A stretch of 64,000 nt of DNA from Actinoplanes octamycinicus (GTDB lineage: Bacteria; Actinomycetota; Actinomycetes; Mycobacteriales; Micromonosporaceae). Under the pieces are notes generated by a model that was not told the origin of the DNA, ran no database searches, and saw only the letters and a program-made list of their open reading frames with translations. Positions 44,077 to 64,000 of the stretch are shown here, piece by piece. Numbering within the stretch: the stretch's first letter is position 1; the number at the start of each line of letters is the position of its first letter. A program made the translations under genes and the position numbers. The stretch is from contig NZ_JACHNB010000001.1 in assembly GCF_014205225.1 (NCBI RefSeq), forward strand, positions 8,227,501-8,291,500, written 5' to 3'.

Positions 44077-44098
44077 CCCGGCCTCCGGCGAGGCGGCC

Positions 44099-44175: not shown

Positions 44176-45219
44176 TCACGGGCCGGAGGCGTTGTCCAGC
44201 ACCGAGACGTCGACCCGGCGCTGCTCGCGGCTCTCCACAGCATCCTCCGTGCCGGCCGTGTACTCGCCTTCGGCCCGGGTGTGGAACTGCACCCGATTAC
44301 CGGCGAATACCTCCAGGATCCGCCGGACCGCGGCCATCCGCTCGGCGGAGAGCCGCAGGTTCAGCGCCGTGTCGCCGGTGGTGCTGGCCCGGCCGATGAG
44401 GACGACAGGGGTGCGGCCGTCGCGGACCCGGGCCTGGGTCGGCTCGGGCAGCGACTGGAACCACGCAATCAGCCGGTCCTGCTCGGCGAGGCTCACCGCG
44501 TCCTGCCGGGGCCTCTCGAAGTAGGTGCGGTGTCCTCGCTCGCGCACCGCGGGGTGGGCGGGCGTCCGCACCGCCAGCCGGAACTGCCTGATCCAGGACC
44601 GTCCGCCGATGCCCTCGTTGATCACGTAACCCACACCACCGCTGCGCCCGTGACTGGTCGTGGTGGTGATCCGGACGTTCAACTGCACCCAGTCGGCGCC
44701 CGTCAGCGGCTCTACTGACTCGACGTACAGCTGCGTCGTCAGGTCCAGGCCTTCGTCACGGACGAGTCCGGCGTCGATCTGGAGCGTCCCGTCCGGAGCC
44801 ACAGTGATCGGGAAGTCGGCGAAGAAGTCCTTCGCGTAGCTCAAGTCGTCGAACGGCGGACTGTTGTCAATGTCCACGACGGCATGCACCCGGACCTGAA
44901 GCACGCCACTGGTCCCGGACGCCACGGTGATGGCGGCCGTCTGGGCTGTTGCTCCGAACACCGTGGTCGCCGCAGCCCGGCCGCCGACCCAGTAGGTGGC
45001 GCTGAGTGACAGGTCGACCTGGGAGTCGTCGTCGGCAAGGGCAACCCGGGCGCCCATCCCGGTGTCCGGCGTCCGGACCACGAGCCGCTGGACCGCGGTG
45101 TTGCCGAGCCGCTTCTGGAGTGTCAGGAGGCGGTGAGCAGGGGCGTGCGCCCGGATGGGCAAGGCGGTGCGGCGGGCCGGGACGACAGACTGCTCCGGGG
45201 TGCGGTCGAAGGCGGGCAT
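44176..45219 (-). CDS. OmpA-like domain protein of the injection-system cluster
   Basis: A 347-residue protein without a signal peptide. Near its N-terminus LLTLQKRLGNTAVQRLV (31-47) matches the motif in the DUF4157 protein of the same cluster. The middle (about 55-220) is beta-rich. The C-terminal domain (LIAWFQSLPEPTQARVRDGR, TPVVLIGRASTTGDTALNLR, LSAERMAAVRRILEVF) is OmpA/MotB-like and would normally bind peptidoglycan. It is the last gene of the operon. It may anchor or dock the device at the wall, or be a cargo carrying a loading motif; the sequence does not decide. Confidence 0.75.
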   Translation of the reverse strand: MPAFDRTPEQSVVPARRTALPIRAHAPAHRLLTLQKRLGNTAVQRLVVRTPDTGMGARVALADDDSQVDLSLSATYWVGGRAAATTVFGATAQTAAITVASGTSGVLQVRVHAVVDIDNSPPFDDLSYAKDFFADFPITVAPDGTLQIDAGLVRDEGLDLTTQLYVESVEPLTGADWVQLNVRITTTTSHGRSGGVGYVINEGIGGRSWIRQFRLAVRTPAHPAVRERGHRTYFERPRQDAVSLAEQDRLIAWFQSLPEPTQARVRDGRTPVVLIGRASTTGDTALNLRLSAERMAAVRRILEVFAGNRVQFHTRAEGEYTAGTEDAVESREQRRVDVSVLDNASGP

Positions 45220-45222
45220 CGG

Positions 45223-45564
45223 TCACTCCAGGACCGGGACGTCGATGAGGTAGAAGCCGGATCGTACGGTCTGGAAGGTCGTGATGGTCCGGTCCTCGGT
45301 GTAGAGCTGCTTGCGGCACGGGGCGGGATAGTCGGCGCGGGCGGCGGTCAGCTGTTTCGCGGTCAGCCGGGTCATCCCGGGGGCGTTCGCCAGGCGCTTC
45401 AGGACGTCGGCCGGCTGGTCGACGCGGATCAGCGCCTCCTCGCCGCCGTCGCGGACCAGCACGAACCGGAAGTCGACGCCGTCCAGGGCGTCCGGGACGG
45501 TGAGCGTGGCGTCCCCGCCGGCCGGCTGCACCGCGGTCCGGATGCGGAAGTGTGCGACGGCCAT
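45223..45564 (-). CDS. Uncharacterised injection-system-associated protein
   Basis: A 113-residue protein from ATG 45564 with GGAGG 8 bases upstream. It has a beta-rich front (AVAHFRIRTAVQPAGGDATL, GVDFRFVLVRDGGEEALIRV) and a helical middle (DVLKRLANAPGMTRLTAKQL). No family is recognised. It lies 3 bases before the OmpA-like start and 12 after the fibre-like gene, so it is part of the operon; a chaperone or adaptor for the fibre is one guess. Confidence 0.65.
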   Translation of the reverse strand: MAVAHFRIRTAVQPAGGDATLTVPDALDGVDFRFVLVRDGGEEALIRVDQPADVLKRLANAPGMTRLTAKQLTAARADYPAPCRKQLYTEDRTITTFQTVRSGFYLIDVPVLE

Positions 45565-45576
45565 GGTGACCACCTC

Positions 45577-47274
45577 CTACTGGATGTTGACGAAGACCGC
45601 GATGTAGCCGGTGCCCTCGGCGAGCGGTTCCAGCGCCTTGCCGATGATCGTGCCGAGCTTCGGCTCGGTCGCCTTCTTGGCGTGCCCCGGGTTCGCCGAC
45701 GAGGTGAGCAGGTCACCAACCCGGATGGGCGCTTCGGTGGCGTCCGCCCGGCAGTGCGCGTAACAGCCGAGGGTGACGACGTGCAGCCGCCCGCCCGGCG
45801 CCACGAACGTCGGATCGTCCGGCTCGGTGCGCTGGTCCGGCTCGCCGGGCGCCGGCAGCACTTCGCCGTCCATGATGCCGATGACCAGCGGATCGTCGGC
45901 GGTATCGGCTGGCAGCACCTCGTTCACCGGGATCCGATTGAGTGTTCCGCTGAACGAGGTGCTGCCGGTGCCGGCCAGTTTGACCACGTCACCGGTTCGC
46001 AGGCGGCCCGGGCTCGCGTTGACGAAGAGATCCGTCACGTAGCCGGGCTTGCCACCGTTGAAGGAGATGGCGCCGTTGACGATCAGGGCGAAGGCGCCGT
46101 TCGGCGCCCCGAAGTACCCGCCGTGCGCCCGGGTCGAGTTGGACAGGCCCATGACCGCGCTGCGTTCGGCAGGCATCGCGATGCCACCGGTCCCGGCGAC
46201 GATTCCCTGGATCGCGTTCTGAGCCGGCTGCCCGGCATTCAGGTTCATCTGGACCTGCAGGCCCGCAAGTCCCCTCGCGGTCGAGACCGTGACGTCCATC
46301 GTGTCGCCGTCGACGGAGAGCGCACCCAGCACCCGCACCGGGCCCGACACCTGACCGCCGGTGATCGGCAGGGCGCCGACCTGATCGGCGGTCGTCGCGT
46401 GCGGGTTGTTCCCGTCGGTGGAGTGGGTTTCACCGACGATGATCGCGTTGTTGCCGTCGTCAGTGACCACGGAGATCGTGTTCGCCCCGGCGAGGCTGAT
46501 GTCGCCGCCCGGGTTGCTCACTCCGCCGACCGAGGTCAGCGCGCCCAGCTGGGCGGCGGTCGTGCCGTGCGGGTTGGCGGTGTTCGCCACGTGCTGGTCG
46601 AGGCGGGTGCCGTCGGCGGACACGTCGCGGCCGTCGACAGTGCCGCTCACCTGCAGATTTCCCTGCAGGTCGGCCCGCCCGGCCGCGCCCAGCCGCAGCC
46701 GCACCCACTGGCTCGGCGCCACCTGCGGGTCGGTCAGCGCCAGGTCGTGCACCTCCAGGTCGCCGCCGACCACCCCGGCCGCCCGGCGGCGGTTCGGCCC
46801 GTCGCCGTCGTCGACGCCGCTGATCGTCCCGTCGTTCGCCACCGTGGCGCGGCCCAGGATCAGCGTGAGACTGGGGTCGTCGGGCGGGTCGGGGCTGACG
46901 TCGACGACCGGCAGCTCGGTCCATCGGGTGTTCCCGGTGACTCCGGTCTCGCTCGTGGAATCGGTCTGCTGCTCGTCGTACGCCAACGTGACGAACAGGG
47001 TCTGACCGCCGGACCCGGACAGGTCCGCGGTCTGGGCGTTGTGCGGCAGCACCAGCTCGCGGCCGTTGCCGTCGACGGCGGCGCCGGCGGTGACGGTGAC
47101 CCGGGAGCCGCCGGCGACGGTGGTCAGCGTGAGCCCTTCGGCGATCCCCCAGGTGTGCTGCAGCCGCTGGTGGCGCCGCCGCTGTTCGAGGTGATACTCC
47201 TGCTCGGCGGTGAAATCAGTTTCGCGCAGGAACTGGTGGTCGAAGTAATGGACGCGTTTGATCTCGTCCGCCAC
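45577..47274 (-). CDS. Tail-fibre/receptor-binding-like protein
   Basis: A 565-residue protein. The N-terminus (VHYFDHQFLRETDFTAEQEY, HLEQRRRHQRLQHTWGIAEG) is the usual opening of baseplate-attached proteins in contractile injection clusters. The middle has collar-like repeats, HVANTANPHGTTAAQLGAL and GNNPHATTADQVGALPITGG, as in phage fibres. The C-terminal part (GLSNSTRAHGGYFGAPNGAF, GRLHVVTLGCYAHCRADATE) is beta-rich, like a peptidase-G2 or fibre head. It would contact the target or fix the device. It is followed by the small protein and the OmpA-like gene. Confidence 0.75.
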   Translation of the reverse strand: MADEIKRVHYFDHQFLRETDFTAEQEYHLEQRRRHQRLQHTWGIAEGLTLTTVAGGSRVTVTAGAAVDGNGRELVLPHNAQTADLSGSGGQTLFVTLAYDEQQTDSTSETGVTGNTRWTELPVVDVSPDPPDDPSLTLILGRATVANDGTISGVDDGDGPNRRRAAGVVGGDLEVHDLALTDPQVAPSQWVRLRLGAAGRADLQGNLQVSGTVDGRDVSADGTRLDQHVANTANPHGTTAAQLGALTSVGGVSNPGGDISLAGANTISVVTDDGNNAIIVGETHSTDGNNPHATTADQVGALPITGGQVSGPVRVLGALSVDGDTMDVTVSTARGLAGLQVQMNLNAGQPAQNAIQGIVAGTGGIAMPAERSAVMGLSNSTRAHGGYFGAPNGAFALIVNGAISFNGGKPGYVTDLFVNASPGRLRTGDVVKLAGTGSTSFSGTLNRIPVNEVLPADTADDPLVIGIMDGEVLPAPGEPDQRTEPDDPTFVAPGGRLHVVTLGCYAHCRADATEAPIRVGDLLTSSANPGHAKKATEPKLGTIIGKALEPLAEGTGYIAVFVNIQ

Positions 47275-47291
47275 GGGCTTCCTCCGATCGG

Positions 47292-47972
47292 TCAGTGCGG
47301 GCCCAGCAGGGTGTCGACGCCGACCGTGGAGTGCACCCCGATCCGCAGTGCCGGCGTCTGCACCGCGAGGGCGTACTGCGTGTGTGCGGGTTTCTCTTGG
47401 TCGAGCAGGTAGGTGACGACCTGCCGGTGCCGGGCGAGCTCGGCCGGGTCGGTGCCGGGCAGCCGGATCAGCACCCGGAAGAAGTGCGGGGCCCCGCCGC
47501 CGAGCAGCGTGTCCACCCCGACCCTGGAGTGCACGCCGAGCTGGAACGGGGTGTCCAGCTCGTCGACGGTCACTCCGAGCCGGGTGTACACCCGCAGGTA
47601 CTCCTCCAGCCCGGCCTTGGTGCCGCGCCGGTGGTAGAGCGACACGGCCCGCGCGACGAAGTCGCGTTGCCGCAGCTCGTCCAGGTCGCCGCGGAGGCTT
47701 ATCGCGACCCAGCCGGCCAGCCAGTCGAGGAACTCGGCGGGTGCCCGTTCGGCGTCCGGCAGCTCCGGGCCGGGATCGAAGTAGCGGTGCACGCCGGCCA
47801 GCCGGACCTGCCCGGTGACCGGGTCGGCGATGCCGTCCAGGATCTCCTCGATCCCCGGCGCGTCCGGGTCGCCGAGCCCTGTCAGCATCTGCTCGAAGGC
47901 GAGCAGGAACCGGCCCAGCAACGGCGATCCGTCCTGGAAGGTGGCCGGCAGGTAGTCGAGGTAGCCGCTCAT
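47292..47972 (-). CDS. Baseplate protein gpI-like (P2 tail protein I family)
   Basis: A 226-residue protein whose ATG overlaps the upstream stop (ATGA). MSGYLDYLPATFQ, PLLGRFLLAFEQMLTGLGD, ADPVTGQVRLAGVHRYFDPG, then VSLYHRRGTKAGLEEYLRVY is the tail-protein-I pattern that joins wedge to fibre. Unusually GVHSRVGVDTLLG (146-158) recurs as GVHSTVGVDTLLG (212-224) at the C-terminus, flanking a small beta domain. It is followed 17 bases later by the fibre-like gene, in keeping with its docking role. Confidence 0.85.
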   Translation of the reverse strand: MSGYLDYLPATFQDGSPLLGRFLLAFEQMLTGLGDPDAPGIEEILDGIADPVTGQVRLAGVHRYFDPGPELPDAERAPAEFLDWLAGWVAISLRGDLDELRQRDFVARAVSLYHRRGTKAGLEEYLRVYTRLGVTVDELDTPFQLGVHSRVGVDTLLGGGAPHFFRVLIRLPGTDPAELARHRQVVTYLLDQEKPAHTQYALAVQTPALRIGVHSTVGVDTLLGPH

Positions 47973-49057
47973 GCGTCGATCACCACCTCGGCGAGCTCGC
48001 CGGGCTGCAGCCGCACGCCGGTCCCGATCTGGTGGGCCGGATCGGTGGTCACCTCCGCGGTGACCTGCGGCGCGCCCGGCCCGAGCGCCTCCCGGACCGC
48101 CGCCCGGATCGTCGCCGCGGTGACCGTCCGGGCCGCGTCGTGCAGCGGATGGAAGATCTCCCGGGTGCGCAGCCGGGCCACCCGCCGCCCCGCCTCGTCG
48201 AGCGCGGGCTGCGCCCGCAGCACCACGCTGACCTCGACGAACGTCGTCCCGATCACGATCCGCGCCGGGTCCGCGGCGGGTTGCGGCAGCTGGTGCGGCC
48301 CGAGGACGAGCCGGTCCGGGCCACCGATCAGGAACACTTCGGGTACGTGGTCGACCCCGGCCGTGCGCTCGAGCACCTGGTACAGCTCCGAGACGTGCAC
48401 GTCCCGCCCGAACGGCCAGTTCAGCGGGTCGAGGAAGCCGGTCAGCCGCTCGACGACCCGGGTCCGCAGCGGCTCCACCGGCGCGTCCGGCCGCCGCGCC
48501 ACCAGGATCTCCGCGCCGACCGGCACGAGGAACGGCCCGGTCACGTGCACCCGGGTGGTCAGCAGCCGCCGCCCGTCCAGGTCCGCGCGGACCGCCGCCA
48601 GCTGGTCCGGCGCGCCGGGCACGACCACCACGCTGACGTGCCCGGGCCGGTCCGCGGCCGGGTCGCCGCTCAGGTCGCGCCGCGGCACGCACCGGGTCCG
48701 GGCGATGCCCGGGGCGGCCGCCGCGGCGAGCCGCTCATAGTCACCGGCGGTGACCGCCCGGTCCTGGGCGCGCAACCCGAGCACCGTCGCCCGGACGTCC
48801 GCGTCCAGATCCGTCCCGGGCGTCCATCCGGGCCCGTTCAACAGCTTCAGGAACGTGCGTACGTGCTGGTCCGGCACCCGTCCGGTGCGGTACACCAGCA
48901 TCTCGGTCAGCCACGCGAACAGCTCGATCAGCGTGATGCCGGGATCTGACACGTTGTGGTTCGTCCACTCCGGGTCCTCGGTGCGGATCCGGGCGCGGGC
49001 CTCGTCGAGCAGCGCCGCGAACGTGCGATCGTCCAGCTCAGGGCTCGGGATCGGCAT
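47969..49057 (-). CDS. Baseplate wedge protein gpJ-like (second copy)
   Basis: A 362-residue protein. The front PIPSPELDDRTFAALLDEAR, WTNHNVSDPGITLIELFAWL, TEMLVYRTGRVPDQHVRTFL, then DRAVTAGDYERLAAAAAPGI is typical of baseplate assembly protein J (Afp11/12-type). VSELYQVLERTAGVDHVPEV ends the wedge core; the rest is strand-rich. It overlaps the larger wedge gene upstream by 20 bases in a different frame and overlaps the gpI gene by 4. The two J-type proteins would form the inner and outer wedge. Confidence 0.87.
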   Translation of the reverse strand: MPIPSPELDDRTFAALLDEARARIRTEDPEWTNHNVSDPGITLIELFAWLTEMLVYRTGRVPDQHVRTFLKLLNGPGWTPGTDLDADVRATVLGLRAQDRAVTAGDYERLAAAAAPGIARTRCVPRRDLSGDPAADRPGHVSVVVVPGAPDQLAAVRADLDGRRLLTTRVHVTGPFLVPVGAEILVARRPDAPVEPLRTRVVERLTGFLDPLNWPFGRDVHVSELYQVLERTAGVDHVPEVFLIGGPDRLVLGPHQLPQPAADPARIVIGTTFVEVSVVLRAQPALDEAGRRVARLRTREIFHPLHDAARTVTAATIRAAVREALGPGAPQVTAEVTTDPAHQIGTGVRLQPGELAEVVIDA

Positions 49058-52000: not shown

Positions 52001-52571
52001 CGCGGGTCAGTACCGCGACCAGGCGGGTCCGCGGCACCACCAGATCGTTCTCGGTCTCGAAGACGACCGGGTCGCTCTCTCCGTCCAGCGGCGCGGCGCT
52101 CACCCGGGTGCCGGCCGGCACCAGCGGGTCGACCTGGGCGGCGGTGGCCGGCCGGAAGGTGAGCGGCACCCGGGCGGCCCGGGCCGGCAGCAGGTCGACG
52201 CCGATCAGGTCGAGGAAGGCGGCCAGGTTGCGGTCCGGTACCTGGTTGACCCGTTCGACGAGCTGTTCCAGCATCCGCGCGAAGATCCGGACCAGGCCGT
52301 ACGCCGGGTCCGGCTCGGGAACCACGGCGATCCGGCCGAGCCCGGGCACCGCGGCGAGCACCTGGAGCAGGGCGTCGTCGGCAACGGTCCCGGCGCTCGC
52401 GACGAGCTGCCCGGTGCCCGGGTCGGTGACGTCCTCGTTCAACGTCCGGCCGAGCAGCAGTTCCGGGACCACCGGCACCCGCTGCCAGCCGGCATGGCGC
52501 TGCAGCAGCCGCTCGGTCTGCGCGACCAGGTCGGCCGGCGTGCGCCTGTCGACCGGCGGTGGCCCGCTCAC
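49038..52571 (-). CDS. Large baseplate wedge protein (Afp11/gpJ-like)
   Basis: A 1177-residue protein, the largest in the window. The N-terminal part (ARMLEQLVERVNQVPDRNLA, AFLDLIGVDLLPARAARVPL, TFRPATAAQVDPLVPAGTRV) and the C-terminal part (RHRDRAVAVSDFEDLARQAS, SDVARVAAIAAGPGSVTVIV, SELYAVIEEVPGVDHVSALS) are baseplate-J modules. Between them lie beta-sandwich insertions (about 510-600) and repeated ALAWEYWTG/LAWEYWNGSGWAPLG blocks. These WEYW(T/N)G segments are common in large eCIS wedge proteins. It overlaps the gp25 gene by 4 bases. Confidence 0.88.
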   Translation of the reverse strand: MSGPPPVDRRTPADLVAQTERLLQRHAGWQRVPVVPELLLGRTLNEDVTDPGTGQLVASAGTVADDALLQVLAAVPGLGRIAVVPEPDPAYGLVRIFARMLEQLVERVNQVPDRNLAAFLDLIGVDLLPARAARVPLTFRPATAAQVDPLVPAGTRVSAAPLDGESDPVVFETENDLVVPRTRLVAVLTRDPAADRYRDSTGRQPFPAFTGDRPMTHDLFLDRLTPPGPAGEPEAVTLRFRPAEGNQPWPAGVTWAAWDGGDWADVPATTGPAPVGGAWEVHLPAVPPPTGGRWLRARLAAPLPRDGADRQLPRITQIQRRVVVRRSGLLPAQAVTADGPADPGDRFLPFGERPHVDDAVYLAHSAAFGTPGAVVTVDIPVGNPRRPQSGWPRPPVRPSPGLAVAWEYWTGQRWAELGRGTPLPGDRVLEPYVTSVETTDVTIGGQRPPGAVVTIERIHPPAAADTVPAGDTSWQRTLTGLQPGMSLFRIGVPNRPPVLAPVFRAGAGVDPVPLTLDPAPGIVAESPLVVAGSCGLAAGTAVLYNAATGTRTDVPLAGGRFEVPVTLAGGRNDLAVLVLDNAGRAVAGEVLPVVLQPAGFADATWAFTRPGQVTFQMPADAAPREVNGVAGAWVRARVASGGYGEDARYIPDGSTRPVYRLVPETHQPPAAGPCTIGYTAVSPFAPITAVRSDNDQTPRDHAAALAAGQEVQPFVPSADDRPTLYLGFAPPAFGNRPVTLFLGVAETRYTATPASPPAADPTLAWEYWNGSGWAPLGVRDRTRALTRSGLVTFLGPADQRESTEFGRSACWLRVRWLSGGYPEPPRLRHVLTGTTWATQSRTVRDEILGSSNGEPGQVFRLSGTPVLPGEQIQIRSAGNPSGDTVENWVGVGDFYESGPSDRHYVLDRASGTVTFGDGRRGLIPPPGRGNVRAVRYQVGGGARGNRAAGTIVQLKTAVPYVDSVTNVEPARGGAPAETAAAARERGPRTLRHRDRAVAVSDFEDLARQASSDVARVAAIAAGPGSVTVIVVPRDPVPQPVPDLELLGRVDEHLRARMTPTATLTVAGPDWLRTRVDAEVVPSAEAGADLVAGVLARLAAFLHPVTGGPDGAGWDFGRRPHRSELYAVIEEVPGVDHVSALSVTNEADGPVRADRLLTYGGAHRIVLREGDDDADPEP

Positions 52572-52969
52572 GGCGCCACCCCCGGGTCCAGGTAGAACGG
52601 GTAGACCAGGTTGAACACCGTGTTGGTGGCCCGGAGGCGGTAATCGATCTGGATCAGCAGCGTGGCCGGCGAGTCCGGTGCCGAGCCGGCCCGGACGTCG
52701 AGCAGGTCGATCCGTGGCTCCCAGCGCACCAGCGCGTCCCGCACCCGGGCTTCGACCAGCCCGGCGGTGGCCGCGTTGCTGATGCCGAAGACCAGGTCGT
52801 GCACGCCGCAGCCGAAGCCGGGCCGCATCGCCCGCTCGCCCGGCGCGGTGCTCAGGATCAGCCAGATCGCCTCCCGGACGCTGTCCTCGCCGGACACCCG
52901 GACGACCCGGCCGCGTTCGTCGAGCTGGATCGGGAACTTCCAGCCCACCCCGGTGAAGTCGGCGGTCAT
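52568..52969 (-). CDS. Baseplate protein gp25-like (GPW/gp25 family)
   Basis: A 133-residue protein. GVGWKFPIQLDERGRVVRVS, VREAIWLILSTAPGERAMRP, GFGCGVHDLVFG is the diagnostic gp25/W fold, including the E-x-R-like core that nucleates sheath assembly. DALVRWEPRIDLLDVRAGSA follows. It sits between the PAAR tip and the large wedge gene, as in other contractile injection clusters. Confidence 0.92.
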   Translation of the reverse strand: MTADFTGVGWKFPIQLDERGRVVRVSGEDSVREAIWLILSTAPGERAMRPGFGCGVHDLVFGISNAATAGLVEARVRDALVRWEPRIDLLDVRAGSAPDSPATLLIQIDYRLRATNTVFNLVYPFYLDPGVAP

Positions 52970-52981
52970 CGTCCTCCCGCC

Positions 52982-53380
52982 TCAGCCGATCGTCACGGTG
53001 CCGCCGGCGACGACCCGGCCGACGGCGAGGTCGGCCGGATCGTTGCAGGTGGTGGCGGGGTCGCCGGACCGGGCGGCGGCCCGCCCGTTGATCGTCACGG
53101 TGGTGCTGCCGGCCTGCACGGTGGCCCGGTTCGCCGGTGGCGTGGCGAAGCCGGTGCCGGGCGGCGACGGCAGGTGCGCCGGGACGTTGCCGGCGGTGCT
53201 GCCGACCGTCGCGGCGGGCCGGCCCTCGATGGTGACGTCGCTGCTCAGGCCACCGGTCAGCACGCCGCTGAACGGGTGCGGCAGCGGCTGCGGCACCAGC
53301 GTCCCGCCGGACGGGACCAGCACGATGTGCGTGTCAGTGGCGACGATCCGGTCGCCCTGCTTGGCGGCGGGCAGGCCCAT
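52982..53380 (-). CDS. PAAR-like spike tip protein
   Basis: A 132-residue protein of PAAR type: MGLPAAKQGDRIVATDTHIV, TGGLSSDVTIEGRPAATVGS, ATVQAGSTTVTINGRAAARS, GDPATTCNDPADLAVGRV. The repeated 'V.I.GRPAA..GS' hairpins build the cone that sharpens the spike, often with a metal held by His/Cys residues (His at 18, Cys near 112). It follows the spike gene by 9 bases. Confidence 0.9.
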   Translation of the reverse strand: MGLPAAKQGDRIVATDTHIVLVPSGGTLVPQPLPHPFSGVLTGGLSSDVTIEGRPAATVGSTAGNVPAHLPSPPGTGFATPPANRATVQAGSTTVTINGRAAARSGDPATTCNDPADLAVGRVVAGGTVTIG

Positions 53381-53389
53381 GTTTCCCCC

Positions 53390-54046
53390 TCAGTTGATGC
53401 CGACGGTGCTGCCGGCCACCGCGCAGTGCCCGCTCGCCCGCAGCGTGGCGCCGGCGGCGGAGGTGACGGTGACGTCGCCGCCGGACGAGCTCAGCTCGAT
53501 GCTCTGGCCGGTCACCACGACCTTGCCGGTGGCGGACTCCAGGACCAGGTCGCCGTCGGCGTGCACGGTGACGGTGCCGGCCGCGGTGTCGATCACGATG
53601 CGGTTGGCGCCGCCCGCGCCGACGATCTCGACGCGGCCGGCGCCGTCGGTGTCGTCGAGCCGGATCAGGTGCCCGGCGCGGGAGACGATGGCGCGCCTGG
53701 CGACCTGACCGGACTCGTCGAGCGGCGTGGACTCCGGCGGGGCGTCCACGCCGTTCCAGAGCGCGCCGAGCACGTACGGAAAACGGATGTCACCGTGCGC
53801 GAAAGCGACCAGGACCTCGTCGTCGACCTCGGGCAGGAGCTGCAGGCCCCGCCCGGGGCCGGCCATCGGCGCGGCGATCCGCGCCCACCAGCTCTCGTCA
53901 TTTCCGGACAGCCAGGGGAAGCGGACCCGGACCCGGCCGAGCCCGTCCGGGTCGTTGTTGTTGGTGACGATCCCCGGGACGACGCCGAAGACGCGGTCGT
54001 GGCCGCCCGGCGGCGGTCCCAGCAGATCCAGCAGGTCGTTGCTCAT
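53390..54046 (-). CDS. Spike protein gpV/VgrG-like
   Basis: A 218-residue baseplate protein V. The OB-fold (VFGVVPGIVTNNNDPDGLGR, VRVRFPWLSGNDESWWARIA, QLLPEVDDEVLVAFAHGDIR, FPYVLGALWNG) is followed by a strand-repeat helix (IVIDTAAGTVTVHADGDLVL, VTGQSIELSSSGGDVTVTSA) that forms the trimeric needle. It pairs with gpD upstream, with which it overlaps by 4 bases, and carries the PAAR tip. Confidence 0.92.
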   Translation of the reverse strand: MSNDLLDLLGPPPGGHDRVFGVVPGIVTNNNDPDGLGRVRVRFPWLSGNDESWWARIAAPMAGPGRGLQLLPEVDDEVLVAFAHGDIRFPYVLGALWNGVDAPPESTPLDESGQVARRAIVSRAGHLIRLDDTDGAGRVEIVGAGGANRIVIDTAAGTVTVHADGDLVLESATGKVVVTGQSIELSSSGGDVTVTSAAGATLRASGHCAVAGSTVGIN

Positions 54047-55098: not shown

Positions 55099-55727
55099 GA
55101 CCCGGCCTCCGGCGGCAGCGGCGGGACGGCCAGCACCCGGCCCGGTTCCAGCCTGCGCGGGTTGTCGATGCCGTTGGCCTCGGCGATCGGCCGCCAGCGG
55201 GCCGGGTCGCCGTACTCGGCGGCGGCGATGGTGGCCAGGGTGTCGCCGCGGGCCACCACCCGGGTCTTGGCGTGGTCGGCGGACTCGGTGGGGCGGCGGC
55301 GGACCTCGACGGCCAGGTCGACGTACTCCTTGAAGGTGACGCCGAGGATCGCGCGGACCGGGGTGCCGTCGGCCAGGAACAGGGTGAACCGGCCGCTGAC
55401 CCGGTCCAGCACCGCGGTGAACAGGAAGGTGCCCCATCCGACCCGGCAGATCGGCGGCGCGTGCGTGCCGGGGTCGATGCGCAGCAGGTCATACACGCGG
55501 TCGGTGTGCTCGCGCACGTCCGTCTGCTTCTCGTACGTGTCGAAGAACAACTCCATCGTCAGCACCGCGGTGGTGCCCCTGACGAACTGCAGGATCGGCG
55601 CGGCCTGGCCGGGGATCGGGATCTCGGCGATCTGATTGCCCCGGTCCAGCGTGTACTGGGTCGGGTTGAACAGGGCGGTGATCGCGGCGCCACCGGCCGG
55701 CGTGATGTGGATCTTCTCGAGTGGCAT
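55095..55727 (-). CDS. LysM baseplate protein (Afp7-like)
   Basis: A 210-residue protein from ATG 55727. The N-terminal part (LFNPTQYTLDRGNQIAEIPI, LQFVRGTTAVLTMELFFDTY) is the Afp7/gp53-like region. The C-terminus is a LysM domain (TRVVARGDTLATIAAAEYGD, NPRRLEPGRVLAVPP). In related devices it connects hub and wedge, and the LysM domain acts as a structural adaptor. It starts 4 bases after the proline-rich protein's stop. Confidence 0.9.
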   Translation of the reverse strand: MPLEKIHITPAGGAAITALFNPTQYTLDRGNQIAEIPIPGQAAPILQFVRGTTAVLTMELFFDTYEKQTDVREHTDRVYDLLRIDPGTHAPPICRVGWGTFLFTAVLDRVSGRFTLFLADGTPVRAILGVTFKEYVDLAVEVRRRPTESADHAKTRVVARGDTLATIAAAEYGDPARWRPIAEANGIDNPRRLEPGRVLAVPPLPPEAGS

Positions 55728-55731
55728 CGGG

Positions 55732-56904
55732 TCACCAGCCCCGGCGTTCGCGGTCGCTGCGCAGGCGGCGGACGAGCAGGCCGTAGACGTGGTCGGCGAG
55801 GGCGGGCAGGTCGGGCGGGGTGGGCTGCGGCGGGCCGAACGGGACGGTGCCGGGTGCGGTGGCGGTCGCCTCCGGGAGGTCCGGTGCGGCCTGCGGCGCG
55901 GAACTCGCCGGGGCGGCCGCCCGTTGCGGGGCGCGCGGCGCGCCGGCCCTCGGCCCTTCCGGAAGCAGCGGCTCCGGAAACTTCGACAGCGCGCTTCCCG
56001 GGACCGACGGGACGGCACTGCCGGCGCCGAAGCCGGCCGGGTGCTGCCCAGCCGGCGCGGCGGCGCCGCCGGTGCGGGTGACGGGAACTGCCGAGGATGA
56101 CGCGATGGGCGCGATCGCCACCGGACGGTCGGCACCGGCGGATCCCGGCAACGACGTTGGGCCGCGCCGCACTGTGATCACTTCCGGACGACCGGTGGCG
56201 CCACGGCGAACCGGCACGGGGCGCGACGGCGGCCGCGCGACAGGCGATGCCGCCGGCGACTCCGCGCCGGCGATCGGCGACACGGACACCCGGTCACCAG
56301 GCGAAGGAACACCCGTGAGAGCGACACCCGGAGGCGGAAGACCCATGGGAGAGACAACCGTGGGCGGAAGACCCGTGGGAACGACACCCGTGGGCGCAAG
56401 GCCCGTGGGCGGGACGCCCGGAGTGGCCGATGCCGCGCCGGTGCCCGGCCACCGGATCGTTACTGATCTCGCCGAGCCGGTCCCGGTGGCACCGCCCGGC
56501 ATAGTCGCCGACAGCTGAGCAACCTGGAGTTCCGGCTGCTCAAGCCCCTTGTGGATACCGGTCCCCGACGCGGATCGCGCGAGCCGGGAGGTCGTTGCGA
56601 CCACCGGTGTGCCCCTGTCCGGCCTGGCGGGCGTCAAGGCCACCGCCGGCACGGGCACCAGCGGAACCACCCCCGCCGACCGGCCACCGCCGACCGGGAC
56701 CGCCGCCGGCCCACCGTTCCCCCACGACGGCCACCGCCCGAACGCCTCCCGCACAGCCCACCGCCGCAGCACCGAGTCAAGCAGAGGCAACCTCCGATCG
56801 CTCCCGGACAGCTCCTGCGCCCGCCGTCGCGCGTCCCCAAGCCGGATCACCCCGGGCCGCTCCACGAACCGCCCGGCCAGATCGTCCCCCCACGCCTCGG
56901 TCAC
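55732..56904 (-). CDS. Proline-rich protein of the injection-system operon
   Basis: A 390-residue protein from GTG 56904 (GTGA overlap with the tube gene). The short ordered N-terminus (GDDLAGRFVERPGVIRLGDA, LLDSVLRRWAVREAFGRWP) and C-terminus (LPALADHVYGLLVRRLRSDR) bracket about 300 residues rich in Pro, Ala, Gly, Ser and Thr. These include a 10-residue repeat (PTGLAPTGVVPTGLPPT). I do not recognise a family. The position between tube and LysM protein, with two ordered ends and a disordered middle, suggests a linker, a loading or length-setting factor or the device's missing tape measure; this is unproven. Confidence 0.7.
   Translation of the reverse strand: MTEAWGDDLAGRFVERPGVIRLGDARRRAQELSGSDRRLPLLDSVLRRWAVREAFGRWPSWGNGGPAAVPVGGGRSAGVVPLVPVPAVALTPARPDRGTPVVATTSRLARSASGTGIHKGLEQPELQVAQLSATMPGGATGTGSARSVTIRWPGTGAASATPGVPPTGLAPTGVVPTGLPPTVVSPMGLPPPGVALTGVPSPGDRVSVSPIAGAESPAASPVARPPSRPVPVRRGATGRPEVITVRRGPTSLPGSAGADRPVAIAPIASSSAVPVTRTGGAAAPAGQHPAGFGAGSAVPSVPGSALSKFPEPLLPEGPRAGAPRAPQRAAAPASSAPQAAPDLPEATATAPGTVPFGPPQPTPPDLPALADHVYGLLVRRLRSDRERRGW
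56333..56422. repeat. 30-bp tandem repeat in the proline-rich gene
   Basis: Three 30-bp units (56333-56362, 56363-56392, 56393-56422) share GGCGGAAGACCCGTGGGA-like cores, with a diverged 33-base fourth copy at 56300-56332. They encode a PTGxxPTxxx repeat on the minus strand. In-frame repeats can change number by slippage. Confidence 0.75.
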
Positions 56905-57359
56905 CCCGCACCCCCGGCCCGCGCCTTGCGCAACCCCTGATGCACCAGCTCGACTGCCTCCACCGCGACGGTCCCGGACGCGGCCCGCAGCTCCGGCCCG
57001 GTCCACCGCACCGGCAACGCCTGCAGGAAGTGCCACCACATGACGTCCTCCCCCGCACCGTCCAGCAGGTAGACGGTCCCGTCCCGGCGTTCGAACACCC
57101 CGCCGAGCACGTCCTGGTGCCACTGCCAGAGCGCTTCCACGTCGCTGATCCCGTTGCGCAGCACCAGGTTGGCCGGGTAGCGGGCCGGCCCGGGCAGCTT
57201 GTGCTCGTACTCGTTCACCCCGCCCTCCCGGTACGTCTCCACCACCGTCTCCACCTGCAGCCCGGTCACCTCGGTGAACCCGCCGACGACGAGCCCGCCG
57301 ACCTCGACCCGGAACCCGTAGCCCAGGTACGGGTCGACGCGCTCCCCGGTCGTCGCCAC
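56901..57359 (-). CDS. Tail tube protein, gp19-like (second tube)
   Basis: A 152-residue T4 gp19/Hcp-like protein. VDPYLGYGFRVEVGGLVVGG, FTEVTGLQVETVVETYREGG, LRNGISDVEALWQWHQDVL, VYLLDGAGEDVMWWHFLQAL, then AVEAVELVHQGLRKARAG covers the full fold. It is a paralogue of the tube at 57895-58329 and probably caps or starts the tube near the baseplate (Afp5-like role), as two distinct tubes are usual in this group. Confidence 0.92.
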   Translation of the reverse strand: MATTGERVDPYLGYGFRVEVGGLVVGGFTEVTGLQVETVVETYREGGVNEYEHKLPGPARYPANLVLRNGISDVEALWQWHQDVLGGVFERRDGTVYLLDGAGEDVMWWHFLQALPVRWTGPELRAASGTVAVEAVELVHQGLRKARAGGAG

Positions 57360-57386
57360 AGCCGTCCCTCCTCCGCCGGCGAAAGC

Positions 57387-57536
57387 TCACTCGCGGGACA
57401 GCAGCGCGGCCACCTCGGCCACCCAGCGCTGCCGCTCCCGGTGCGCCATCGACATGATCTGGTCGTACGGCCAGTGCAGGTGGAAGCCGAGATACGCCAC
57501 CTCCTCGTGCAGCCGCTGCGAGGGGTAGCGCGTCAT
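57387..57536 (-). CDS. Small conserved injection-system protein (DUF6760-type)
   Basis: A 49-residue protein, ATG 57536, overlapping the previous stop (ATGA). MTRYPSQRLHEEVAYLGFHL, HWPYDQIMSMAHRERQRWVA, EVAALLSRE is the pattern of a tiny helical protein found between tube genes in many clusters, often as the second cistron of a tail-assembly-chaperone pair. It is too short for most gene finders. Confidence 0.8.
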   Translation of the reverse strand: MTRYPSQRLHEEVAYLGFHLHWPYDQIMSMAHRERQRWVAEVAALLSRE

Positions 57537-57898
57537 CCCCCCAGGCCGCTCAGCTCCACCGCGAACTCGGTCTCGCAGCGCGGGCAGACCACGGTTCCGT
57601 GCGCCGCCCCGTCCTCGTTGACCCGGCGGTAGAACTCCTGCAGGAACGCCAGGTCCCCGGCCGGCAACCCCTCCATGACCTTCGGGTTGACCCGGGGCAG
57701 GTCGCCGAGCCGCAGCACCACCCGGGAGAGCAGGATGAGCACCAGGTAGCCCGGGTTGGCCTGCACCCGCGGGTCCTGCATCGGCGCGATCTCGTCGTAC
57801 GCGGTGGCCAGCCGCATCACCCCGGCGCGGTGCACCGCGCCGTCCGCGTCGGTGTAGCCGCGGGGCAGCGTGAACGGGAACTCGGTCGGCGGGTTCAT
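57533..57898 (-). CDS. Tail-assembly-type protein with CxxC
   Basis: A 121-residue protein from ATG 57898, overlapping the first tube gene by 4 bases. FPFTLPRGYTDADGAVHRAG, VMRLATAYDEIAPMQDPRVQ, LVLILLSRVVLRLGDLPRV, then VCPRCETEFAVELSGLG with Cys105 and Cys108. It resembles phage tail assembly chaperones (gpG/gp41-like) that hold the tape measure before tube growth, and forms a pair with the 49-residue protein. Confidence 0.82.
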   Translation of the reverse strand: MNPPTEFPFTLPRGYTDADGAVHRAGVMRLATAYDEIAPMQDPRVQANPGYLVLILLSRVVLRLGDLPRVNPKVMEGLPAGDLAFLQEFYRRVNEDGAAHGTVVCPRCETEFAVELSGLGG

Positions 57899-58329
57899 GC
57901 CCGGACCAGCCCCTCGTGGGTGATCTCGACGGACTCGATGGCCACCTCGTTCGCCGTCGCGTTCAGCGCCGGTCCGGTCCACTTGCTCGGCCAGCCGCCG
58001 ACGAAGTTCCACCGCACCTGCTCCTGCCCGAGCTCATCGAGCAGCACTATCGAGCCGTTGCGCCGCTCGATCCGGCCGGTCATCGCCCGTTCCCGCCACT
58101 GCCAGAACGCGGCGCTCGTGGTGATCCCCCAGCGCAGCACGATCGCCGGGTAGGTGACCAGGCCGGCCAGCTGGCGCATGGTCGGCGGGTCGTTGCCCTC
58201 CCGGTACGGCACCGGGGCGGTCGTCGTCTCCAGCCCGGACACCTGCTGGAATCCAGCCTGCGCGACCTGGTCGATCTCGACCAGGAAGCTGTGCGCGAAG
58301 AACGGGTCGACGCGTACTCCTAGCGGCAT
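57895..58329 (-). CDS. Tail tube protein, gp19-like (main tube)
   Basis: A 144-residue tube subunit. VDPFFAHSFLVEIDQVAQAG, FQQVSGLETTTAPVPYREGN, LRWGITTSAAFWQWRERAMT, LLDELGQEQVRWNFVGGWPS, then AIESVEITHEGLVRA. It follows the sheath genes after a 21-base gap and is expected to be the repeated inner tube of the device. Confidence 0.93.
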   Translation of the reverse strand: MPLGVRVDPFFAHSFLVEIDQVAQAGFQQVSGLETTTAPVPYREGNDPPTMRQLAGLVTYPAIVLRWGITTSAAFWQWRERAMTGRIERRNGSIVLLDELGQEQVRWNFVGGWPSKWTGPALNATANEVAIESVEITHEGLVRA

Positions 58330-58350
58330 TGCCGGTACCTCCCGATCCGG

Positions 58351-59505: not shown

Positions 59506-59507
59506 GG

Positions 59508-60677: not shown

Positions 60678-60708
60678 TCGCCTCTCACCTGTCCTCTCTG
60701 TCCGCCGC

Positions 60709-61257
60709 TCAGGCGGTCTGCAGGGCGAAGTCCACGGTTTGCTCCTGGCCGGCGAGCAGGGTGACCGCTCGGCTCGCGGCGCCGAACTTCGGTGCGCCGA
60801 CCTCGACGACCACCGGGCCGGCGGGCAGGCCGGCCACGCGATAGCCACCGTCCGGGCCGGTCCGCCACCGCTCGGTGGTGCCGCGCAGCCGGACCGTCGC
60901 GCCCGGCACCGGGGTGTCGTCGGCCGCGGCGCTCACCCGGCCGGCGAGCCGGGTCGGTGGCAGCCGGATGTCGAGCGGGTCGATCTTCCCCGGGGTCACC
61001 CAGACCCGCACCGGGCCGGTCTGCACGCTGCCGTACCGGGTGCCCAGCCCCGGCGCGGTGGCCTCCAGGCGGTACAGCCCGGCGGGGAGGTCCAGGAAGT
61101 AGAAGCTGCCGTCGGCCCGGCTGACCGCCGGACCGGCCCCGAGCCGCGGACCGCTCAGCACCACCACCCGGGCCAGCGGCACCGGTAGCCCGGTGGTGTC
61201 GTCGGCCACCCGCCCGCCGATCGCCACCACGTGCCGGGTGGTCTCCCAGCCGCTCAC
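60709..61257 (-). CDS. Two-repeat carboxypeptidase-regulatory-like beta-sandwich protein
   Basis: A 182-residue protein with two similar beta-sandwich units: residues about 10-95 (GGRVADDTTGLPVPLARVVV, GSFYFLDLPAGLYRLEATAP) and 103-180 (LAGRVSAAADDTPVPGATVR, GGYRVAGLPAGPVVVEVGAP). This fold is common as a decoration or adhesion module. Here it sits between the cap protein and the sheath. A role as an outer decoration or shaft attachment is possible. It overlaps the DUF4255 stop by 4 bases. Confidence 0.8.
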   Translation of the reverse strand: MSGWETTRHVVAIGGRVADDTTGLPVPLARVVVLSGPRLGAGPAVSRADGSFYFLDLPAGLYRLEATAPGLGTRYGSVQTGPVRVWVTPGKIDPLDIRLPPTRLAGRVSAAADDTPVPGATVRLRGTTERWRTGPDGGYRVAGLPAGPVVVEVGAPKFGAASRAVTLLAGQEQTVDFALQTA

Positions 61258-61811
61258 GGCACCTCCTCCACCCCTAGCCGCATCCGGTCGATCTTCTGCA
61301 GCACCACCGGGGCGTCCACCCGCTCGAAGACGTCCAGCCCGATGGTGACCGTGTAGTTGAACGCGGCCTTCGGCTTGCCGCCCATCGCCTGCCAGAACTC
61401 GCCGGCGCTCTGCAACAGGCTGGGCTGCAGCGTGCCGGCCGGCAGCCGCGGGTCGGCGCGCAGGCTGCCCTGGCGCACCTCCGGAGGCAGCACCGGGTAC
61501 CGGGCCAGCACCCGGATCACCCGGCTCAGCACCAGGTGCTCGTTGCGGATGTCACCGGCCCACGCGGTGACCAGGTAGGAGCAGGCCACCCGCAGCGGCG
61601 GGCGGGCGGTGACCACCCCGGGCGGCGCCGAGCGGTCCAGCAGCCAGTCGTTGTCCCGCAGCTCCCGGTTCTCCCGCAGGTCGTAGAGGAACAGGTCGAC
61701 GGCCGGCTGGGCCGGAGCGAACTTGTCGTCCGGCGGGTCGAAGCTGACGTTGACGTCGGGCAGGTCCCGCTTGAGCAGCTCGCCGAGGGTGGCGTCCAGG
61801 TCATTGATCAT
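61254..61811 (-). CDS. DUF4255 protein (Pvc16/Afp16-like tube terminator)
   Basis: A 185-residue protein. MINDLDATLGELLKRDLPDV, NVSFDPPDDKFAPAQPAVDL, FLYDLRENRELRDNDWLLD, then VACSYLVTAWAGDIRNEHLV, LSRVIRVLARYPVLPPE matches the N-terminal domain of Pvc16-type proteins that cap the tube and sheath when the right length is reached. ATG 61811 is preferred; GTG 61817 is possible. It overlaps the end of the DUF4157 gene. Confidence 0.9.
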   Translation of the reverse strand: MINDLDATLGELLKRDLPDVNVSFDPPDDKFAPAQPAVDLFLYDLRENRELRDNDWLLDRSAPPGVVTARPPLRVACSYLVTAWAGDIRNEHLVLSRVIRVLARYPVLPPEVRQGSLRADPRLPAGTLQPSLLQSAGEFWQAMGGKPKAAFNYTVTIGLDVFERVDAPVVLQKIDRMRLGVEEVP

Positions 61812-62310
61812 CGGCACGGCTCACGATCCGATCGGCGACCTGGTCGGCCTCCCGCTCGAACTCGTCGTCCGGATCGCTCACGCTAAGCTCGCCGGCCGCA
61901 ACGGCCGCGGACTGCTGGACGACGTGGGTGAGTTCGTGAGCCAGCAACCGGCGGCCGGCAGTGGTGTCCGGCTCGTAGCCGCCGGCCCGGAAGAAGATGT
62001 CCCGGCCGGTGGTGAACGCGTGCGCGCCGAGCGCGCGGCTGAGCCGGTCGGCGGCACCGCCGGTGTGCACCCGGACCGCGCCGAAGTCAGCGCCGAACGC
62101 CGCCTCCATCGGTGCCCGGACCGCGTCGTCGAGCGCCGCGCCGGTGCCCCGCGCCCGGTCCAGCTCGTCCGGGTCCAGCAGCCGCTGCACGGACTGGTTG
62201 CCGATCTGGCGCTGCAGCCGCAGCAGCGGGTGGACGGCCGGGCGCACCCGGGACGGCACCGGCAGCGCGCCGGCCGGGGTGGTCGCCGGTCGGCGGATCC
62301 GGCCGGTCAC
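61801..62310 (-). CDS. DUF4157 HExxH protein of the injection-system cluster
   Basis: A 169-residue protein from GTG 62310 (GTGA overlap with the ATPase gene). LLRLQRQIGNQSVQRLL (29-45) is the motif also seen in the OmpA-like protein. The DUF4157 core follows (LDDAVRAPMEAAFGADFGAV, RVHTGGAADRLSRALGAHAF, TTGRDIFFRAG) with the zinc-protease-like HELTHVVQQ (125-133). This domain is common at the start of eCIS-loaded toxins and also alone in clusters. Here it stands alone, so it may be a processing protease, a loading adaptor or a reduced effector. Confidence 0.88.
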   Translation of the reverse strand: MTGRIRRPATTPAGALPVPSRVRPAVHPLLRLQRQIGNQSVQRLLDPDELDRARGTGAALDDAVRAPMEAAFGADFGAVRVHTGGAADRLSRALGAHAFTTGRDIFFRAGGYEPDTTAGRRLLAHELTHVVQQSAAVAAGELSVSDPDDEFEREADQVADRIVSRADDQ

Positions 62311-64000
62311 GACGGCACCTCGGCCGGGGTGACCCGGCCCAGCTTCCGGTACTCCGCGCCGACGGCGTCCAGCAGGTGCTCCATGGTGATCGGGGTGCCC
62401 GCCTCGGCAGCACGGAAGGCAGCGGCCACCGCCACGTCCCGGATGCTGCCGCCGGACAGGTCGAACCGGCCGGCCAGCATGTCCAGGTCCACGTCGGCGG
62501 CAACCGGTGCGGTGGCCGGCCAGACCCGCTGCCAGATCCGCCGGCGGTCCGCCTCGCCGGGCATCGGGAAGTCGACGGCGAACCGCATCCGGCGGACGAA
62601 CGCGGCATCCATGTTCTTGCGCAGGTTGGTGGCGAGCACCACCACGCCCTGGTGCTCCTCGAGGCGCTGCAGCAGGAAGCTGACCTCGATGTTCGCGTAC
62701 CTGTCGTGCGCGTCGTGCACCTCGCTGCGCTGCCCGAAGAGCGCGTCCGCCTCGTCGCAGAACAGGATCGCGTCGCCGCTCTCCGCCTCGGCGAACACCT
62801 GCGCCAGGTGCTTCTCGGTCTCCCCGATGTACTTGCTGACCACGGCCGACAGGTCGAGCCGGTACAGATCGAGCCCGAGCCCGGCGGCGAGCACCTCGGC
62901 AGCCATCGTCTTGCCGGTCCCGCTCGGCCCGGCGAACAGCACCGTCACCCCGGACCCGAGCGCCAGCCGCTCCCCGAACCCCCACTCGTCGTGCACCAGG
63001 CCGCGATGCCTGATCACCGCCCCGATCTCGGCCAGCTGCCGTCTCTGATCAGACGGCAGGATCAGATCATTTTCCGTACGGGTGGGCACGATCCTGCGCG
63101 CCAGCGTCGAGAGGGTGGGCCGGGCGTGCCACCGGCACCCGGCGAGCAGGTCCGCGGTGGTCGGGTGCGCCGTACCGCCCCGGGCGGCCCGGGCCAGGTT
63201 GCGGGCGGTGGCGGCGGCGTCCGCGATCTGCGCGCCGCTGAGCCGGAACGTGCCGGCCAGCCGCTCGACGTCGACCGTGCCGGCGCTGCCGTTCAACGTC
63301 CGGGTCCAGACCGCGGCCCGGTCCGCGTGGCCCGGCCGGCGCACCTCGATCCGGCTGAACGGCAAGTCCCGGAACTCGCCGGACGGCTCCCAGGGATGCT
63401 CGCCGGCCAGGATCACCCGGGCGTGGCCGGCCGCGATCCGCTCCAGCAGCAGCCCGGGCGGCCCATCGGCACCGGTCCAGTACAGGGTGGCCCGCTGCAG
63501 GACGGCCTCCCGCAGCGCCCGCCGGACCAGGTCGTCGAGGTCCGCCCGGGGCACCCGCTCGCCGTCGACCACCAGCAGGCGGCCGGCGAGCGCGGCGGCG
63601 GCGGTCCGCTTGCCGGCGCCGGCCGGCCCGTGGAGGTAATACAGCCTCCGCTCCTCGCCGGCCACGGCGGTCAGCCGGTGGGCCAGCTCGGCCGGGACCA
63701 GCTCGGCCGGTGCCATCGCCGGATCCGCCAGCCGGGCGTACGGTGCCAGCGCCTGGTCGAGGTCGTCGTCGCCGAGCAGGTGCGCCACGATCCGCTCGTC
63801 GAGCCTCAGATACTTGCCGAGCAGCGGCGGGTCCGGCTGGGCCGGGTCGTCGACCAGGTCGAGCAGGCGGTGCGCGCGCAGCGGCGCGGCCGGGGTGAAG
63901 CAGCGCCGGGCGGCCCACTTCTCCTCGGCGGTGTGGCACAGCAGGTTCAGCGCCAGGTCGACGCCGGGGCGGCGGCGGGTGACGTCGTCCTGCAAGTAGG
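62307..64000 (-). CDS. AAA+ ATPase of the injection system (Afp15-like; 5' end outside window)
   Basis: At least 564 residues; the frame stays open to the right edge (preceding codon Tyr), so the start lies beyond 64000. A degenerate first ATPase unit (LYYLHGPAGAGKRTAAAALA) is followed by a full AAA+ module: FAGPSGTGKTMAAEVLAAGL (Walker A), DAILFCDEADALFG (Walker B), VVVLATNLRKNMDAAFVRRM (sensor 1, arginine finger region), then GGSIRDVAVAAAFRAAEAGT (sensor 2). Afp15/Pvc15 ATPases help load cargo or assemble or recycle the device. It is the first visible gene of the operon. Confidence 0.92.
   Translation of the reverse strand, partial: YLQDDVTRRRPGVDLALNLLCHTAEEKWAARRCFTPAAPLRAHRLLDLVDDPAQPDPPLLGKYLRLDERIVAHLLGDDDLDQALAPYARLADPAMAPAELVPAELAHRLTAVAGEERRLYYLHGPAGAGKRTAAAALAGRLLVVDGERVPRADLDDLVRRALREAVLQRATLYWTGADGPPGLLLERIAAGHARVILAGEHPWEPSGEFRDLPFSRIEVRRPGHADRAAVWTRTLNGSAGTVDVERLAGTFRLSGAQIADAAATARNLARAARGGTAHPTTADLLAGCRWHARPTLSTLARRIVPTRTENDLILPSDQRRQLAEIGAVIRHRGLVHDEWGFGERLALGSGVTVLFAGPSGTGKTMAAEVLAAGLGLDLYRLDLSAVVSKYIGETEKHLAQVFAEAESGDAILFCDEADALFGQRSEVHDAHDRYANIEVSFLLQRLEEHQGVVVLATNLRKNMDAAFVRRMRFAVDFPMPGEADRRRIWQRVWPATAPVAADVDLDMLAGRFDLSGGSIRDVAVAAAFRAAEAGTPITMEHLLDAVGAEYRKLGRVTPAEVPS

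Follow-up and report, generated by a model that had tools for sequence, protein, structure and literature searches.

What does a contractile injection system (CIS) load? The question is raised by a stretch of 64,000 nucleotides from Actinoplanes octamycinicus (contig NZ_JACHNB010000001.1, positions 8,227,501 to 8,291,500; the whole stretch is called the window below), taken from a complete, single-contig genome of 10.28 Mb. A CIS locus lies on its minus strand at window positions 44176-64511, with the ATPase gene extending past 64000. The machine is a CIS of known kind, and the novelty of the locus lies in a 17-residue N-terminal motif, LLxLQRxAGNxAVxxLL, which we noticed in the translations of three genes: those for a standalone DUF4157 protein, for an OmpA-like protein, and for a 490-residue protein encoded outside the window. 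The motif, designated the tag, does not figure among the observations of a first-pass annotation made from the sequence of this DNA. In our judgement, the locus encodes a complete, fibre-bearing CIS whose cargo is probably selected by the tag, docking via the standalone DUF4157 protein as adaptor or via the AAA+ ATPase.

A profile of 23 columns (A1), built partly from relatives' genomes, finds three matches at E<=1e-3 in the A. octamycinicus genome (E 2e-9 to 1e-7), all inside the CIS cluster. The 490-residue protein has no Pfam match, and its hydropathy windows begin at 150 and 156-162. Its only relative found, P0002 of Actinoplanes sp. NPDC049265 (33% over 54%), is tagged too and agrees with the Actinoplanes-like host proposed in the first-pass annotation. 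P0002 can be aligned to it both in the body and in the tag, and has about 230 additional residues between these two parts. The OmpA-like protein has a tagged relative as well, P0004, and a third relative, P0005, comes without its N-terminus. Plain expressions of the motif gave no match in the clusters of six relatives, and open reading frames (ORFs) were dropped by codon-position G+C in the subsequent matrix scan. The matrix search of those clusters, with a matrix built from 16 segments, most of which are among its own top scores, returned one divergent copy (L075, G044).

The tag is associated with CIS sheath genes. From the class, 246 evenly sampled genomes, A. octamycinicus among them, were searched both for a sheath and for the tag, the latter with a profile (A2) of 56 segments drawn entirely from the window's own order. 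Of the other 245 genomes, 17 of the 41 that have a sheath carry the tag at E<=1e-3, as against 1 of the 204 that have none (Fisher p 4e-14, with no correction for relatedness), and the tag-positive genomes all belong to orders other than the window's own. A reversed decoy profile matched 0 of 246. In a set of relatives searched with A1, the corresponding fractions are 16/53 and 1/46 across 99 genomes; with A. octamycinicus added (100 genomes), 18 are tagged at E<=1e-3, 17 of them sheath-positive, and several have many matches on scattered contigs, the most in one genome being 11 (G090). Within the genus, where genomes are similar in size but A1 was partly built from them, the tag occurs in 11/40 sheath-positive and 0/19 sheath-negative genomes (p 0.008). 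It is scarcely credible that this is an ordinary actinobacterial extracellular CIS (eCIS) whose common motif reflects chance or base-composition bias: high G+C genomes do yield many spurious frames, but per-genome E-values reach down to 1e-9, the decoy finds nothing, and both the N-terminal position and the association with CIS tell against such an origin.

We collected 104 distinct tagged ORFs, filtered for most of the LQ..GN core, so that column counts in this set overstate conservation of that core. The tag sits near residue 55 (median), and the median ORF length is 470 residues, with starts taken as the first possible codon and with ORFs incomplete where a short locus ends. Twenty-eight match DUF4157 and 76 do not, by phmmer against the domain of our own protein; Pfam found no DUF4157 in the 50 scanned. 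After removal of the tag, the 76 fall into 50 BLAST groups (E 1e-5), one query (L243) being unscorable and counted as its own group. Some match to Pfam was found for 11 of the 50 tagged proteins scanned, at or over cut-off for six: a Scabin-like ADP-ribosyltransferase, a GT4-conflict glycosyltransferase, an M15 peptidase, an APOBEC-like deaminase, a Stv protein, and an OmpA protein. No eCIS_core match occurs among the 50, and the tag is not covered by any Pfam stretch in the 50 proteins or any NCBIfam stretch in ten. The OmpA-like tagged gene of A. octamycinicus is not a lone case, because G072 has a tagged OmpA protein. A tagged glycosyltransferase of the GT4-conflict family (L270 1411-3045, E 3e-87) is an unusual candidate cargo. 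Tagged genes need not lie beside the syringe: the 17 sheath-positive genomes of the class sample hold 39 matches, of which 15 are no more than 30 kb from a sheath gene; another 4 share its contig at a distance of 0.75-4.2 Mb, and the remaining 20 lie on different contigs.

We read sheath regions of 20-37 kb each in ten tag-positive and ten tag-negative genomes, with a final tag scan made without the codon-position G+C filter. A tagged DUF4157 protein is found in 7 of the ten tag-positive regions, and a DUF4157-free tagged protein of 990-1300 residues stands at or near the sheath in 5 (G308, G256, G196, G176, G145); weaker tags occur in 2 of the ten tag-negative regions (G290, G219). The 1297-residue tagged protein beside the G308 sheath has 1103 relatives; its identity to database proteins reaches 99%, and those with a named source are from Streptomyces. 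The sheath of G332, a genome of the same genus as G308, aligns with 8BKY end to end. Of the best 120 of these 1103 relatives, which are homologues of a query picked for its tag and hence not independent, 119 are tagged, at median residue 41, and the exception is untagged as annotated. Their N-termini form one group, their C-termini 33. One of the relatives, P0006, matches tape-measure PHROGs (phrog_5493, E 1e-6). The tag could then be an inherited N-terminal segment of phage tape-measure-like and DUF4157 proteins, with no targeting role, a view with which the large tape-measure-like tagged family and the 28 of 104 tagged ORFs that match DUF4157 agree. We regard it as distinctly improbable, as the 76 DUF4157-free ORFs form 50 groups outside the tag, many of them short and away from the CIS.

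Among the published systems closest to ours is the Sle1/Sle2 pair of Streptomyces lividans. In the part of the account of Nagakubo et al. (2026, PMC13277306) available to us, Sle1 is tape-measure-related and is loaded into SLP particles; its N-terminal region was seen to interact with Sle2, a small DUF4157 protein, for which a potential interaction with the tube initiator is described in turn; that part mentions an N-terminal extension of Sle1 and not the motif. As there, the A. octamycinicus cluster has a small DUF4157 protein, of 169 residues, together with DUF4157-free candidate cargo, and tape-measure-like Streptomyces relatives carry the tag (119 of the best 120). Sle1 would itself bear the tag, a resemblance drawn by description rather than from the Sle1 sequence. 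Unlike Sle1, a tape-measure-like coiled-coil effector, the 490-residue protein is short and matches no tape-measure PHROG, and the ATPase gene sits between its gene and that for the DUF4157 protein.

The length of the DUF4157 proteins bears on how cargo could be attached. The smallest DUF4157 open frame has a median of 288 residues in tag-positive genomes (n=17) against 1094 in tag-negative ones (n=15; p 2e-5), where 17 of the 24 tag-negative sheath-positive genomes were searched and two without DUF4157 left out; lengths are those of open frames, and the match behind the value is weak for G108 and interrupted for G298. There seem to be two modes of loading, one in which DUF4157 is fused to a long effector and one in which a short standalone DUF4157 protein accompanies tagged cargo. 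Because the frames are short where the tag is present and long where it is not, we propose a scheme in which cargo docks by its tag. The standalone DUF4157 protein would serve as an adaptor placed at the tube-initiator/spike end. Cargo, here the 490-residue and OmpA-like proteins, would attach through the tag either to this adaptor or to the AAA+ ATPase and be pulled into the tube; fibre contact would trigger contraction of the sheath, and the cargo would leave with the tube. The association of the tag with CIS is shown; how cargo is loaded, what it docks to, its delivery, and its target are inferred. The adaptor is itself tagged, which suggests tag-to-tag docking or a common receptor as candidate arrangements.

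The same protein invites another explanation, that the tag, instead of directing loading, marks where a DUF4157 metallopeptidase-like protein (HExxH) recognizes or processes tagged proteins and so trims or activates them. Our DUF4157 protein retains HELTH and bears the tag, and DUF4157 is present in 17/17 tag-positive, sheath-positive genomes of the class sample. We nevertheless think this unlikely: G113 has tagged genes and no DUF4157 in its genome, and the portions of the literature available to us report no protease activity for DUF4157.

Several observations weigh against tag-selected cargo loading. At the cut-off of E<=1e-3, the tag is missing from 24 of the 41 class-sample genomes that have a sheath, and it is therefore not universal to CIS. 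Three of 20 genomes reached via named loci carry it. Among the closest two-sheath relatives, it was found neither in the genome of L077 at E<=0.01 nor in those of G180 and G316 at E<=1e-3, nor, at a relaxed cut-off, in the clusters of these three, of which only 4 kb is available for G316. Two of the ten tag-positive genomes read (G332, G307) have no tag in the 36 kb that surround the sheath. The one tagged genome of the class sample without a sheath, G113, carries two tagged genes side by side (L262, L275) and lacks DUF4157 as well, possibly through loss of a CIS, as mobile cargo, or as a limit of what the tag means; G072 (82% complete, from the set of relatives) is likewise tagged without a sheath, as is G078 at the laxer E<=0.01. 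That the DUF4157 protein is itself tagged is not required by a simple adaptor model. For 39 of the 50 tagged proteins there is no Pfam match. The structure model of the OmpA-like protein is of low confidence (mean predicted local distance difference test score, pLDDT, 54), and the tag region is disordered in it, residues 1-66 being under pLDDT 50. To these the shared ancestry of the 120 relatives must be added.

The published accounts consulted offer parallels to the proposed signal rather than the signal itself. No description of the motif was found in the available portions of ten articles (PMC13277306, PMC11297309, PMC11126660, PMC12237407, PMC12691689, PMC12923769, PMC10066040, PMC10020575, PMC8213781, PMC12210884), supplements and preprints being outside this scope. 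Spellings of the motif led only to unrelated papers; PMC12067865, in the portion available, deals with mycobacterial NlpC_P60 peptidases. No literature combining contractile injection with Actinoplanes was found. Like the leader peptides of Afp/PVC, the tag would be an N-terminal cargo signal for a CIS, but it differs from them in being a strict 17-residue motif. MIX, FIX, and LXG are common N-terminal markers on diverse toxins of type VI and type VII secretion systems; these are other secretion machines, and our motif is much shorter.

The best matches of sheath 1 among solved chains are 8BKY and 8BL4 (E 3e-103 and 7e-100), the Streptomyces CIS of Casu et al. (PMC10066040, in the part available), while Pvc2 and Afp3 reach only E ~1e-43. 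The first-pass annotation had assigned the locus to Afp/PVC-type eCIS, which stands for the gene set; the sheath comparison dismisses close kinship with Afp/PVC. Like the CIS of Streptomyces coelicolor and S. lividans (CISSc, SLP; class IId), ours has this closest solved sheath, and relatives of its sheath, tube, hub, spike, gp25, wedge, and ATPase genes occur in the clusters examined. Unlike them, it has two compact sheaths, separate gpD and gpV, and a fibre gene, and hydropathy gives no membrane-like window in the three proteins encoded after the baseplate genes.

A tree built from 177 sheath sequences places our two sheaths with those of Sphaerisporangium corydalis (L077), G316 (L277), and G180, with support of 0.97 and 0.996. 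The two-sheath CIS of L077 and G180 resemble ours further in their two tubes and in a separate gpD gene; they and G316 differ from ours in that the tag was not found, and L077 further in having its DUF4157 gene on the opposite strand. When sheath 1 was compared with 59 further genomes of its genus, G020 (58%) and G007 (59%) gave the best full-length matches, and no second sheath was seen in their clusters. We infer that our CIS belongs to a rare two-sheath sublineage, patchy and possibly transferred. Compact sheaths resembling sheath 1 are scattered in Myxococcota, Spirochaetes, Chloroflexi, Geothrix, and Methylophaga (L078-L084, L091, L092, L094).

Kinship with Streptomyces raises the possibility, compatible with cargo selection by the tag, that the device acts inside its producer, in cell death or development, as the Streptomyces CIS acts on its producer (PMC10066040, in part). 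The closeness of the sheath speaks for this. Our fibre gene, with its CIS13-like anchor, speaks against it, since the available part of PMC10066040 (Casu et al.) reports no conventional fibre gene in Streptomyces clusters. So does the absence of a membrane-like hydropathy window from the three proteins after the baseplate genes, where CisA of the Streptomyces CIS has a membrane segment according to the portion of PMC12237407 available to us; the comparison is one of hydropathy, and CisA homology was not searched. We consider action inside the producer possible but rather doubtful, and the predicted fibre and missing membrane-like window lean towards a device aimed at other cells.

That the locus holds a complete CIS gene set without disrupting stops, fibre gene included, is a well-supported prediction. 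Twenty-two minus-strand reading frames run from 66076 down to 44176 (Table 1). Sheath, tube, spike hub, PAAR, gp25, wedge, AAA ATPase, and Pvc16/DUF4255, the genes by which the eCIS superfamily is recognized, stand together here (Pfam and NCBIfam), as does the DUF4157 core domain (Pfam E 1.8e-33), which is the sole eCIS_core match genome-wide at E<=0.01. The CIS components named in the first-pass annotation were all recovered on the minus strand by Pfam, NCBIfam, and PHROG, with the matches of the fibre, second wedge, and OmpA-like proteins below cut-offs. Its gene list was right but incomplete, lacking the CarboxypepD_reg, tail-assembly-chaperone-like, low-complexity, and 116-residue genes and, beyond the window, the 490-residue gene. 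The single run of genes that it described is borne out; the 4-base overlaps that it noted occur at 8 of 21 junctions, among them that of the DUF4157 and ATPase genes, and the largest gap is 173 bp. Two further points of that annotation held beyond position 64000: the ATPase gene, whose start it had left to be found there, is complete at 64511, and no capsid, portal, or terminase occurs among the genes scanned on both sides, which rules out a prophage remnant or tailed phage. Disrupting stops, which it had named as a possible refutation, are absent, the 22 frames being open throughout (0 internal stops), and a decayed cluster is thereby ruled out.

Table 1. Predicted genes of the CIS locus in window coordinates, in order of transcription
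Feature	Positions	Strand	Evidence
490-aa orphan protein with N-terminal tag, first candidate cargo	64604-66076 (L003:4604-6076), outside window	-	tag E 6.7e-8, own genome
AAA+ ATPase with winged-helix domain, of the Afp15/Pvc15 type	62307-64511 (to 64000 inside window)	-	Pfam WHD E 3e-50, AAA E 1e-27
Standalone 169-aa eCIS_core (DUF4157) protein, HELTH motif and N-terminal tag, proposed adaptor	61801-62310	-	Pfam E 1.8e-33 in longer frame 61801-62985; tag E 2.2e-9
Pvc16_N (DUF4255) tail terminator/cap	61254-61811	-	Pfam E 2.5e-30
CarboxypepD_reg beta-sandwich protein	60709-61257	-	Pfam E 3e-29
Sheath 1, compact, 389 aa	59508-60677	-	Pfam Phage_sheath_1 E 8e-18; PDB 8bky E 3e-103
Sheath 2, compact, 384 aa	58351-59505	-	Pfam Phage_sheath_1 E 2e-17; 44% identity to sheath 1 over residues 55-383
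Inner tube 1, gp19-like (T4_gp19)	57895-58329	-	Pfam E 4e-43
Tail-assembly-chaperone-like protein	57533-57898	-	phrog_508 E 7e-6
Inner tube 2 / tube initiator, CIS5-like	56901-57359	-	TIGR02241 E 4e-34 (over cut-off), CIS5_fam E 6e-34 (below cut-off)
Low-complexity Pro/Val-rich protein, between tube 2 and LysM hub	55732-56904	-	open frame; no NCBIfam or PHROG match
CIS_tube + LysM hub protein	55095-55727	-	Pfam E 2e-29 and 5e-6 in longer frame 55095-56135
gpD spike hub (Phage_GPD)	54043-55098	-	Pfam E 2e-10
gpV spike (Phage_base_V)	53390-54046	-	Pfam E 2e-30
PAAR spike tip	52982-53380	-	Pfam E 2e-9
gp25 sheath initiator (GPW_gp25)	52568-52969	-	Pfam E 7e-28
Baseplate_J wedge protein, 1177 aa	49038-52571	-	Pfam E 3e-19
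Second baseplate wedge protein	47969-49057	-	TIGR02243 E 3e-40, 138 bits vs cut-off 156; phrog_6 baseplate wedge E 5e-12
gpI-like baseplate protein	47292-47972	-	Pfam Tail_P2_I in longer frame 47292-48692; TIGR02242, CIS12_fam
Tail fibre with CIS13-like N-terminal anchor	45577-47274	-	CIS13_fam E 5e-14, residues 5-111, far below cut-off; phrog_8147 tail fibre E 6e-14
116-aa protein	45223-45573	-	no family match (Pfam, NCBIfam, PHROG)
Tagged OmpA-like protein, second candidate cargo: tag starting at about residue 30, then a beta-rich middle and an OmpA-like C-terminus	44176-45219	-	tag E 1.1e-7; OmpA 18.2 bits vs cut-off 27.2

A 552-residue frame (55732-57390) and a 466-residue frame (47292-48692) were each dismissed as whole genes on codon pattern and overlap. 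No tape-measure protein (Afp14) was recognized, the PHROG scan having covered 8 of the locus's proteins. PDB searches with the fibre and with an alignment of the OmpA-like protein gave no match, and no promoter- or terminator-like site was found at 43700-44400.

Directly upstream of the 490-residue gene, beyond the window and on the same strand, lie two GGDEF genes, one with EAL (66499-70219; L003:6499-10219), followed by ordinary chromosomal genes; control of the CIS cluster by cyclic di-GMP is conceivable. Downstream of the CIS, at 34024-40360 on the minus strand, are conjugation-like genes (TrwB/TraG-like ATPases, TrbL, and a type IV secretion system pilin), possibly an integrated element beside the CIS.

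The tag is not confined to Actinomycetota. It occurs in three genomes outside that phylum (loci L346/L090, L345, L347): an Acidobacteriota genome encodes a tagged protein without DUF4157, and Haloarculaceae and Anaerolineae genomes encode tagged DUF4157 proteins. A weak copy in Haloarcula L108 falls short of the cut-off. The tag may, from these occurrences, predate Actinomycetota. We suggest, at slightly under even odds, that the motif is a general CIS cargo address, by which one syringe loads effectors scattered over the chromosome via a tagged standalone DUF4157 adaptor, perhaps tag to tag, and which may extend beyond Actinomycetota.

If this account is true, loading by the tag would be a second strategy beside that of DUF4157 fused directly to a toxin. 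If the motif is the loading signal for one actinobacterial group of CIS, a genome sequence would yield a list of candidate cargo, even of genes remote from the syringe, and one could test directly whether the standalone DUF4157 protein serves as adaptor. The tag would then speak, for that group, to the question of what CIS load.

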